Below are positions 16,007-18,187 of a stretch of DNA of 29,689 nt, in pieces (position 1 is the stretch's first letter; each line of letters opens with the position of its first letter). The translations under genes and the position numbers were made by a program. The notes below the pieces were generated by a model. The model made no database searches and was not told the origin of the DNA. It worked only from the letters and a program-made list of their open reading frames with translations. The stretch is from a virus: the IMG/VR virus record IMGVR_UViG_3300020430_000068, positions 1 to 29,689 of that record; one strand, written 5' to 3'.

Positions 16007-16355
16007 TTTTCCACCTCTCAAATAAAATTTCTTGTTTTGCGTATGCTTCTTTTTCTCTATCCACTATGGGACTTTTATCTTTTCTATAATCTTGTTTCAC
16101 ATGTACCATTTCATGCATAATCGCAGTTACAAAATCATCATAACATAAATTTTTATTTATTTCAATAAAATGTTGACGGTTATCCTCACCAGACCATTGA
16201 TAGCCATCAACTCCACCATCTAATTCATTTAGTAAATCAATCGTGATATCTAGAGTACGAACTCTGGGTAACAACTCACTCATACACCATTTTACTATTT
16301 GTTCAGTAAAAATTTTTTGGTTTTTGTCACCACCGTTGATTTCTATGTAGTTCAT
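15996..16355 (-). CDS. Putative zinc metallopeptidase (HExxH)
   Basis: The 119-aa protein has IMHEMVHVKQDYR with His81, Glu82 and His85, a classical zincin helix, and REKEAYAKQ at 100-108 with a Glu (101 or 103) placed as the third ligand. The first half has a beta-rich DITIDLLNELDGGVDGYQW. It is short for a peptidase and resembles SprT- or WLM-like minimal zincins of phages. The substrate is unknown. It overlaps the upstream 70-aa gene by ATGA and the wall hydrolase gene by 11 bases, so they are co-translated. Confidence 0.7.
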   Translation of the reverse strand: MNYIEINGGDKNQKIFTEQIVKWCMSELLPRVRTLDITIDLLNELDGGVDGYQWSGEDNRQHFIEINKNLCYDDFVTAIMHEMVHVKQDYRKDKSPIVDREKEAYAKQEILFERWKNDN

Positions 16356-16564: not shown

Positions 16565-16582
16565 AAAACCTCTCTATTTAAA

Positions 16583-16952: not shown

Positions 16953-17171
16953 TTACCCCCTCACATTATTTTCAATTAATTCATTCTGTAGTTGTCTAAT
17001 ATTATCTACAGCACCATCAGTATCATTGTCTTCAATCCTATCGATAATCATAGTAAGAATACTATCGATACCTTGAATACCATTGACCCAAATATGTTCA
17101 TTAACATTTTTGTCAAACATTTCACCAACCATCTTAGTTGTTTTTTGTCTTGTTATATCATACTTACTCAT
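16953..17171 (-). CDS. Small helical protein, unknown function
   Basis: Two starts are possible. ATG 17171 has AGAGAGG five bases before it and gives 72 aa (MSKYDITRQKTTKMVGEMF and onward). ATG 17213 adds 14 residues (MSKEIDNKNKREVD) but lies exactly where the upstream promoter would start the RNA, so it would need leaderless initiation. I prefer 17171. The protein is acidic and helical, with NIRQLQNELIEN at the end. No family is recognised. Confidence 0.6.
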   Translation of the reverse strand: MSKYDITRQKTTKMVGEMFDKNVNEHIWVNGIQGIDSILTMIIDRIEDNDTDGAVDNIRQLQNELIENNVRG

Positions 17172-17219
17172 ATCAACCTCTCTTTTGTTTTTGTTATCAA
17201 TCTCTTTACTCATACTATT

Positions 17220-17247
17220 ATTATAACAAAAAGGGGGAGTTTGTCAA
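17220..17247 (-). promoter_or_regulatory. Consensus sigma70-type promoter with -35 in a hairpin loop
   Basis: The minus strand has TTGACA at 17247-17242, a 16-base spacer and TATAAT at 17225-17220, both perfect. The predicted RNA start is base 17213, the A of an ATG. The -35 box spans the loop and inner stem of the terminator hairpin next door. It would drive the small genes from 17171 downward. Confidence 0.75.
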
Positions 17248-17254
17248 CTCCCCC
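17226..17254 (-). terminator. Intrinsic terminator overlapping the next promoter
   Basis: GGGGGAGTT pairs with AACTCCCCC (nine pairs, GACA loop on the minus strand; stem at 17233-17254) and is followed by TTTTTGTT. It would end transcripts coming from the lipoprotein/membrane-protein region. The A-tract on the other side makes it able to act in both directions. Confidence 0.8.
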
Positions 17255-17386
17255 TAAAAAACCTAATAATAACAATGACTTACACATTATGTAAAATTGT
17301 ACATCACCTTATAATCACCGAATCATTAGGCACCGATTCGCATAGCTTTTTGTGATGAGGTTGAGAGGTGCTATGCAAATCGAATC
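17233..17386 (-). ncRNA. Candidate structured small RNA in the 3' region of the lipoprotein operon
   Basis: Directly after the stop of the 51-aa gene, GATTTGCATAGC (17381-17370) pairs with GCTATGCGAATC (17346-17335), 11 of 12 positions. The 23-base loop between them reads ACCTCTCAACCTC and onward, complementary to the AGAGAGGT ribosome sites of neighbouring genes. A competing pairing uses 17335-17340 with 17319-17324. The stretch ends in the intrinsic terminator. A tiny frame of five codons (AAGGTG then ATG at about 17301) is present but I do not count it as a gene. The overall shape fits a 3'-derived regulatory RNA. Function is inference. Confidence 0.4.
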
Positions 17387-17542
17387 TCATAAATCCAAAT
17401 ACTCACTATCTGTCATAACCATGTAGACAACCCCACCTATCATGGTCATTAATCCAAAGAATGAAACTAAGAAAGATATGGCTAGGGATTCTATACCAAT
17501 TCCTAAACATACTGTAAATAAACCTATTGTAAATATCCACAT
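17387..17542 (-). CDS. 51-aa two-helix membrane protein
   Basis: ATG 17542 lies one base after the lipoprotein stop (TAACATG), with GGGAAG in front, so translation is probably coupled. The product (MWIFTIGLFTVCLGIGIESL and onward, ending MVMTDSEYLDL) has two hydrophobic segments, about 2-17 and 20-43, that could form a hairpin in the inner membrane with a short acidic tail. It has no recognised family. Candidates are a holin-like or antiholin-like protein, a superinfection-immunity protein, or part of a small envelope complex with the lipoprotein. The sequence alone does not decide. Confidence 0.65.
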   Translation of the reverse strand: MWIFTIGLFTVCLGIGIESLAISFLVSFFGLMTMIGGVVYMVMTDSEYLDL

Positions 17543-17543
17543 G

Positions 17544-17747
17544 TTAATCTTCCCACTCTACATCACTATTTACAATTAGTTCTTCTTCGGTTAACTCATC
17601 TTGAATTATCTCTTCTTTATTAGATTGTTCAATGAGTTTATTTCGACCCCAATTCGCAATGTCTTGGACATCTTGACCCACACCAGCAACTGTTGAGCAC
17701 CCTGCTACAAAAGTTACTGATAATAATATTGATATAATTTTAATCAT
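17544..17747 (-). CDS. Small lipoprotein, entericidin-like
   Basis: A GTG at 17753 opens the frame, but ATG 17747 follows AGAGAGG by five bases, so I take the 67-aa form. MIKIISILLSVTFVAGCSTV is a lipoprotein signal with lipobox VAGC and Cys17 as the lipidation site. The mature part starts CSTVAGVGQDVQDIANWG, like entericidins (NTxxGxGxDxxxxG), and continues with an acidic tail (EEIIQDELTEEELIV). It would sit in the outer membrane or face the periplasm. Possible roles are lysis (a Rz1-like outer spanin), exclusion of other phages, or a bacteriolytic entericidin-like effect. The 51-aa membrane protein follows it immediately. Confidence 0.75.
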   Translation of the reverse strand: MIKIISILLSVTFVAGCSTVAGVGQDVQDIANWGRNKLIEQSNKEEIIQDELTEEELIVNSDVEWED

Positions 17748-17757
17748 ATTCACCTCT

Positions 17758-18147
17758 CTATATTAAGTAGTTAGCGCCAGTCCAAGAAACTGAATAGTTA
17801 CCTTCTAAGACATTACCTCTTCTACCAGCACCGACCAATGTATATGCACCGTAACCAGCAGCTTTCAAAATATCACCCTTTTTCACTCTACCACAGGCAC
17901 TATCTTTTTTTGCGACACCACCCCAGATTGAAGATTGATTACCTGACGAAGTGTATATACCAATGTATTTTTGTCCACTCCTAATCTCAATTCCATTTTT
18001 GAACCTCTCTTCCATTTCTAACATTACATCTGTCTTTGTCTTAGAACCATCATAACTTGTCCTATTACAATAATCTGCCTTGATGGCCTTAATTAAATTA
18101 TTAACTCCGTCCATCACATCTGTGAATTGTTTTGTTACTCTTGTCAT
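17758..18147 (-). CDS. 129-aa conserved phage protein, unknown function
   Basis: ATG 18147 follows AGAGAGG at the usual five-base distance. The N-terminal half is helical (TDVMDGVNNLIKAIKAD), and the C-terminal half is rich in Gly, Ser and aromatic residues (SSIWGGVAKKDSACGRVKKG, DILKAAGYGAYTLVG, GNVLEGNYSVSWTGANYLI). The last part, with GDILKAA and a final WTGxxYL, is a pattern I recall from hypothetical proteins of cyanophages. A beta-rich, possibly virion or binding domain is plausible. No function is assigned. Confidence 0.7.
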   Translation of the reverse strand: MTRVTKQFTDVMDGVNNLIKAIKADYCNRTSYDGSKTKTDVMLEMEERFKNGIEIRSGQKYIGIYTSSGNQSSIWGGVAKKDSACGRVKKGDILKAAGYGAYTLVGAGRRGNVLEGNYSVSWTGANYLI

Positions 18148-18187
18148 ATTTACCTCTCTGTTATATTAACGAATCACTTATACTATT

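Follow-up and report, generated by a model that had tools for sequence, protein, structure and literature searches.

An RNA element with an anti-Shine-Dalgarno (anti-SD) loop has been identified on the minus strand (17383-17232) of a fragment of a marine T4-like phage. The fragment, hereafter the window, is the whole stretch of 29,689 nucleotides that was analysed (IMG/VR record IMGVR_UViG_3300020430_000068). Among 50,697 phage records, the DNA polymerase of the window is matched best by that of the Methylophilales (OM43) phage Melnitz (64% identity), and no nearer cultivated relative was found. The element itself is real, and it is conserved. It consists of three hairpins (HP1, HP2 and an intrinsic terminator) and is characterized, at the level of sequence, by a defined structure, a covarying stem, a constant loop and an excess of complementarity to the phage's own leaders. 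The best explanation, to which a probability somewhat above one half is given, is a base-pairing RNA, either derived from a 3' UTR or free-standing, that would repress the phage's own GAGAGG-led genes.

HP1 (17333-17383, minus strand) was defined by folding and covariation and lies where the initial annotation had placed a hairpin. Its stem contains 14 base pairs (17383-17370 with 17346-17333) rather than the 12 originally described, and encloses a 23-nt open loop, ACCUCUCAACCUCAUCACAAAAA (17347-17369, minus strand), that is unpaired in the fold. The stretch ACCTCTCAACCTC (17369-17357) in this loop includes the two anti-SD modules CCUCUC (17368-17363) and UCAACCUC (17364-17357). The folding energy of the whole element is -58.9 kcal/mol (z = -6.2 relative to dinucleotide shuffles; 0 of 200 shuffles), and HP1 alone gives a shuffle z of -3.8. 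The alternative pairing suggested for the hairpin does exist: a GAUUCG further downstream is available as partner for the CGAAUC arm in most relatives, and this pairing is weaker than the 14-bp stem. The sequences GATTCG/CGAATC (GANTC sites) are also found repeatedly in these phages, at transcript starts, in promoter spacers and at terminators (window 17319, 17335, 17381 and 18170; contigs L007, L047, L169, L214, L220 and L225), and could represent a methylation or binding site, or the pairing partner of the HP1 CGAAUC arm.

An operon encoding the 129-aa protein, a lipoprotein and a 51-aa protein (17387-18147, minus strand) is located upstream of HP1. No match to the 129-aa protein was found in a search of bacterial genomes. 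No good promoter is present directly before HP1 on the minus strand of the window, and the RNA is therefore probably the 3' end of the operon transcript. HP1 is followed by the longer hairpin HP2 (17261-17331, minus strand), which was identified by folding and whose closing helix also covaries. The 3' arm of HP2 overlaps a motif, GTAAGTCATTG, that is found upstream of promoters in phages without HP1 as well, and for this reason the conservation of that arm was left out of the RNA evidence. The motif, in the form GTAAGTCATTG(A/T)TTT..TA.TAGG, precedes TTGACA by about 20-30 bp in many phage contigs that lack HP1; its sites include window 17270-17290 (minus strand) and contigs L128, L184, L185, L207, L214 and L220, and it is possibly an activator site of phage promoters. 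The initial annotation had an intrinsic terminator following the first hairpin. The terminator (AGGGGGAGTTGACAAACTCCCCCT and a T tail, 17232-17255, minus strand) is genuine, strong and also present in relatives, but HP2 intervenes between the two.

The next gene has a consensus promoter, TTGACA-16-TATAAT (17220-17247, minus strand; 12/12 match). Its TTGACA -35 box is located within the terminator hairpin (GGGGGAGTTGACAAACTCCCCC; 17220-17255, minus strand), so that a single sequence is both terminator and promoter, and this arrangement is kept in relatives (L003, L005, L028, L040, L041, L046 and L124). Two in-frame starts of the next gene are found in the region 17169-17213 (minus strand), namely ATG 17213, beside the promoter, and ATG 17171, after GAGAGGTTGAT. 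The short upstream peptide MSKEIDNKNKREVD resembles the MRKEIDNNNKREVD of relatives, and the true start (17213 or 17171) is therefore uncertain.

Relatives of the element were found via the neighbouring 122-aa, 51-aa and 129-aa proteins and by further searches with loop-containing patterns, with a pattern ignoring the loop and HP1, and with a pattern fixing only part of the stem. Family A comprises the window and contigs L003-L006, L023 and L028; families B, C and D comprise L040-L042, L135 and L171; L124, L169 and L225; and L046 and L049, respectively. The element is located before the 129-aa gene, not after it, in families B and C. Covariation was assessed on 12 different HP1 sequences, which could be aligned without gaps once their loops had been cut back to a 12-nt core. 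Standard pairs account for 98.7% of the cells of this alignment, and 8 of 13 pairs contain double changes that affect both sides. The covariation score is 0.613 as compared with 0.276 for shuffled alignments (0.613 was reached by 0 of 500 shuffles), and slid controls give at most 0.10.

The loop is kept while the stem varies. It is retained in the relatives that were recovered through neighbouring proteins and in each of the 12 contigs that the stem sequence alone had picked out, neither search having made use of the loop. CCUCUC does not vary in any of families A-E or in Melnitz. The second module differs between families: A and B have AACCUC, C has AUCUC and D has CUCUC. Covariation of the stem and constancy of the loop support the reading proposed in the initial annotation, an anti-SD regulatory RNA, of which the function is what we infer. 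Two pattern matches were discarded: contig L026 is GC-rich DNA without the element, although one pattern matched it, and L266 (Ignavibacteria), the only loop-pattern match in the genome collection, has no hairpin and is attributed to chance. A search of Rfam gave no match at the gathering score, and the hits up to E = 5 were at chance level and included no anti-SD family.

The same design is found on unrelated stems. A hairpin scan of other phages revealed three further types with unrelated stems and similar pyrimidine-rich anti-SD loops, and such hairpins lie in the vicinity of homologs of the 129-aa gene. The hairpin of family E (L044, L047, L048, L050 and L102), acgacctatatgac-GUACCUCUCUC...-gtcatataggtcgt, is located directly 3' of the 129-aa homolog and directly 5' of the leader AGAGAGAG. 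The hairpin of family F (L069 and L077), tgacccaactgac-ACUCUCUCUCUCAUUUCUCUCUC-gtcagttgggtca, carries the loop that departs most from the others, and the next leader, AGAGAAAUGAGA, matches this new loop as a perfect complement of 12 nt. No comparable pyrimidine-loop hairpin was found in Mosig and HTVC008M, which counts against the proposed RNA, though short or bulged ones could have escaped. Another hairpin, GAGAGGTGAG...CTCACCTCTC, immediately follows a tRNA gene in L053, L055, L065, L107 and L109, at about 620 nt beyond the 129-aa homolog, and has an SD-like GGAGGA in its loop; these hairpins (L053, L107 and others) were set aside as terminator-like, with the SD in the stem.

In Melnitz (MZ577097, about 38547-38600), a promoter (TTGACT-17-TATGAT) is followed at once by a perfect stem of 15 bp and then by a terminator. 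The loop of this hairpin is ACCUCUCUCUCGACUUUCUCUCUCA (also given as ACCTCTCTCTCGACTTTCTCTCTCA). The unit of promoter, hairpin and terminator is apparently free-standing and has the look of a small RNA gene. The annotated gene MelnitzEXVC044M_66 (hypothetical protein; L228, 38547-38726) spans the hairpin and terminator; its annotation is doubtful and probably represents a false gene call.

Several leaders that could pair with the loop have been located in the window. GAGAGG occurs six times at SD spacing before an ATG, always within 16.0-18.2 kb, around the element. These six leaders belong to the 129-aa, lipoprotein, 72-aa, 70-aa and hydrolase genes and to an internal 37-codon frame; the replication and recombination genes elsewhere in the window have other leaders. 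The predicted targets, all on the minus strand, are GAGAGGUUGA in the leader of the 72-aa gene (17173-17182; ATG 17171) and GAGAGGU in the leaders of the 129-aa gene (18152-18158; ATG 18147), the lipoprotein gene (17752-17758; ATG 17747) and the 70-aa gene (16568-16574; ATG 16564). The complementarities quoted for them in the initial annotation are correct, at 8 nt for the 72-aa gene (GAGGUUGA) and 7 nt for the 129-aa and 70-aa genes; the 8 nt given for the lipoprotein leader hold when the closing C is counted, with 7 nt in the loop.

The cell-wall hydrolase gene (PF07486, ATG 16006) is a possible target through UUGAGAGGU (16013-16021, minus strand). The 10-nt match claimed for it was recovered with the closing C (9 nt in the loop), but this length is specific to the window, and only the 6-nt core CCUCUC/GAGAGG is conserved in relatives. 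The hydrolase leader is contained in the end of the upstream gene, and the 10-nt match was probably lengthened by chance. Among family A phages, the 6-nt core persists with the 129-aa, lipoprotein, 70-aa and hydrolase leaders, whereas the 9-10 nt hydrolase match does not. Just one match keeps its full length in all five phages compared (the window and four relatives), namely that of 8 nt with the next downstream gene (UCAACCUC/GAGGUUGA).

Six families, each represented by one contig, were pooled to measure complementarity between loops and leaders; each loop was compared with its own leaders, and matches of at least 7 contiguous nt were counted. This gave 31 leaders complementary to their own loop. 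Shuffled loops gave 9.2 +/- 3.4, with 0 of 1000 reaching 31, and control stretches inside genes gave 5.8. An earlier version based on whole loops and a broad RBS mask was dominated by A-rich loop ends and spurious ATGs, and this count replaced it. Most of the leaders with a match belong to small genes, and together they form a GAGAGG-type subset. Loops swapped between families fitted worse, and permutations as good as the real assignment numbered 19 of 720 by duplex energy and 64 of 720 by count, the latter being only suggestive. The swaps may be taken as moderate evidence of co-adaptation between loop and leader. The leaders of Melnitz alone showed no excess over composition-matched shuffled loops (p = 0.275), which counts against the proposed RNA; the Melnitz loop is repetitive enough for its shuffles to resemble it. 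The commonest SD in Melnitz is AGGAGA (about 41), as compared with 7 GAGAGG leaders.

In the proposed mechanism, the RNA comes from the 3' end of the 129-aa/lipoprotein operon in the case of the window, and from a transcription unit of its own in Melnitz. The strong stem would display a fixed single-stranded loop with one or two anti-SD modules, and this loop would pair in trans with GAGAGG-type ribosome-binding sites of the phage's own, mostly small genes, including the next downstream gene. Pairing would block binding of the 30S subunit and lead to repression, and a phage poor in transcriptional regulators could in this way lower a leader-defined class of genes together. The hairpin looks like a built-in RNA switch that would lower a set of the phage's own small genes. 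We infer that a discrete RNA accumulates, that it pairs in trans and represses, and how this is timed. The length of the commonest contiguous match, 6-8 nt, is short for trans pairing without a chaperone and counts against a trans repressor.

The main rival is a switch that acts in cis only, in which the loop would find its partner on its own transcript, at the ribosome-binding site of the next gene, and would control translation of that gene locally. Such pairing would be direct in families E and F and would require read-through past the terminator in the window. Family F fits best. The 12-nt perfect complement of the L077 loop lies just downstream in the next leader, and a cis role is possible for the hairpins of families E and F, which are located directly before a ribosome-binding site without a terminator. 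The SD of L050, AGAGAGAG, begins 1-2 nt past the stem, and the next gene supplies the only long match kept in the five phages compared. However, a terminator and a new promoter separate the hairpin from the next gene in the window and in families B and C, and many other leaders also match. For a pseudoknot in family E, a 14-bp stem would have to be bridged by 1-4 nt, which is probably sterically unfavourable. The Melnitz unit is free-standing and its next gene is a poor match. Regulation in cis only is considered rather unlikely.

The protein-binding and host-directed readings explain less than a trans repressor. In the first, the pyrimidine-rich loop would bind a protein, such as ribosomal protein S1, a cold-shock protein or a phage translational regulator, and the element would serve as a sponge or stability element. 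All loops are rich in C and U despite their differing exact sequences, as such a site would have it, yet neither the excess of exact complementarity to the phage's own leaders nor the 12-nt match of L077, which includes CAUUU, is explained, and this reading is given a low probability. A role in host takeover, in which the RNA would act on host mRNAs, or on translation in general, through masking of purine-rich SDs, is marginally less probable again: anti-SD loops can in principle reach many mRNAs, and the loop contains two CCUC modules, but it fits GAGAGG and not the AGGAGA that is commonest in Melnitz, and it is the phage's own leaders that are enriched. A small gene overlapping the 51-aa gene at ATGA (...SQP...), whose open frame MRFDLHSTSQPHHKKL... 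crosses HP1 in family A and would keep the loop as coding sequence, is rejected as highly improbable, because stem changes are compensated on both arms though amino acids change (L005: CAT-TAT with TGC-TAC), the loop is not variable at third codon positions, families B and C lack an equivalent ATG overlap, and families D-G have the loop type, but no frame, in common.

A trans-acting repressor of GAGAGG-led genes also allows a wider proposal, which is possible though on balance doubtful. A private SD variant (GAGAGG) would tag a class of own genes in marine T4-like phages, which would carry the matching anti-tag RNA; the stem and the place in the genome would be free, whereas loop and tag would co-evolve. 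Melnitz has been reported to have no identifiable middle promoters and few terminators, and a simplified temporal control was proposed by the authors, in whose paper the term sRNA is absent (PMC9004378). The tag and anti-tag RNA, if real, would be a translational switch for a whole class of genes that replaces the missing middle-promoter system. An anti-SD RNA directed at a marked subset of phage genes would add a post-transcriptional layer in phages of abundant, streamlined ocean bacteria. A literature search of open-licence papers gave no earlier description of an anti-SD RNA in T4-like or marine phages.

Several known regulators resemble the element in part. The RegA protein of T4 is a repressor that lowers many early phage mRNAs at their initiation regions; the phage element is likewise proposed to be one regulator of many phage mRNAs, but as an RNA instead of a protein. 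Yfr1 of marine cyanobacteria is a structured RNA of small size, in which a pyrimidine-rich stretch directed against target mRNA leaders is both unpaired and ultraconserved. Yfr1 is a host gene with its motif between hairpins, whereas the motif of the phage element is in a loop. Phage RNAs that block translation initiation, sar of P22 and c4 of P1/P7, have one target, the ant gene of temperate phages, and c4 pairs around the ribosome-binding site through complementary stretches that are probably located in loops (PMC12197685). Unlike these RNAs, the loop of the T4-like phages fits several genes and is not a cis-encoded antisense RNA.

In design, the element matches the alphaproteobacterial cuckoo/alpha-r14 RNAs (NfeR1 and CcsR1-4), in which, as in the phage element, the anti-SD motif is unpaired and ultraconserved and the stems are strongly divergent. 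The hairpins of NfeR1 carry a fixed anti-SD motif on divergent stems, and this RNA silences ntrB by pairing of about 8 nt at the initiation region (PMC10746234). The CcsR RNAs are cut out of the 3' UTR of an mRNA for a small protein and have a terminator at the end (PMC8625941, PMC10253847). The motif is CCUCUC(AACCUC) in the phage element and CCUCCUCCC in the cuckoo/alpha-r14 RNAs; CCUCCUCCC is missing from the phage loops, which contain CCUCUCAACCUC, CCUCUCAUCUC, CCUCUCUCUC or CUCUCUCUCUC instead. The phage element has one such loop, whereas the cuckoo/alpha-r14 RNAs have three or four hairpins, and it differs further in its occurrence in T4-like phages and in its apparent targets, the GAGAGG-led phage genes. 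No Pfam match to DUF1127 was found among the three upstream and five downstream neighbours (15.5-18.15 kb), and the DUF1127 gene of Melnitz is 7 kb from the hairpin. The element is therefore not a member of that group, as its motif differs and it has neither an Rfam match nor a DUF1127 neighbour. Features of a trans-acting sRNA were found, namely a conserved structure with compensated changes and above-chance complementarity to several mRNAs (the latter not for Melnitz alone). The phage element would work like the cuckoo/alpha-r14 RNAs while falling outside their group, and the anti-SD loop design would extend to T4-like phages.
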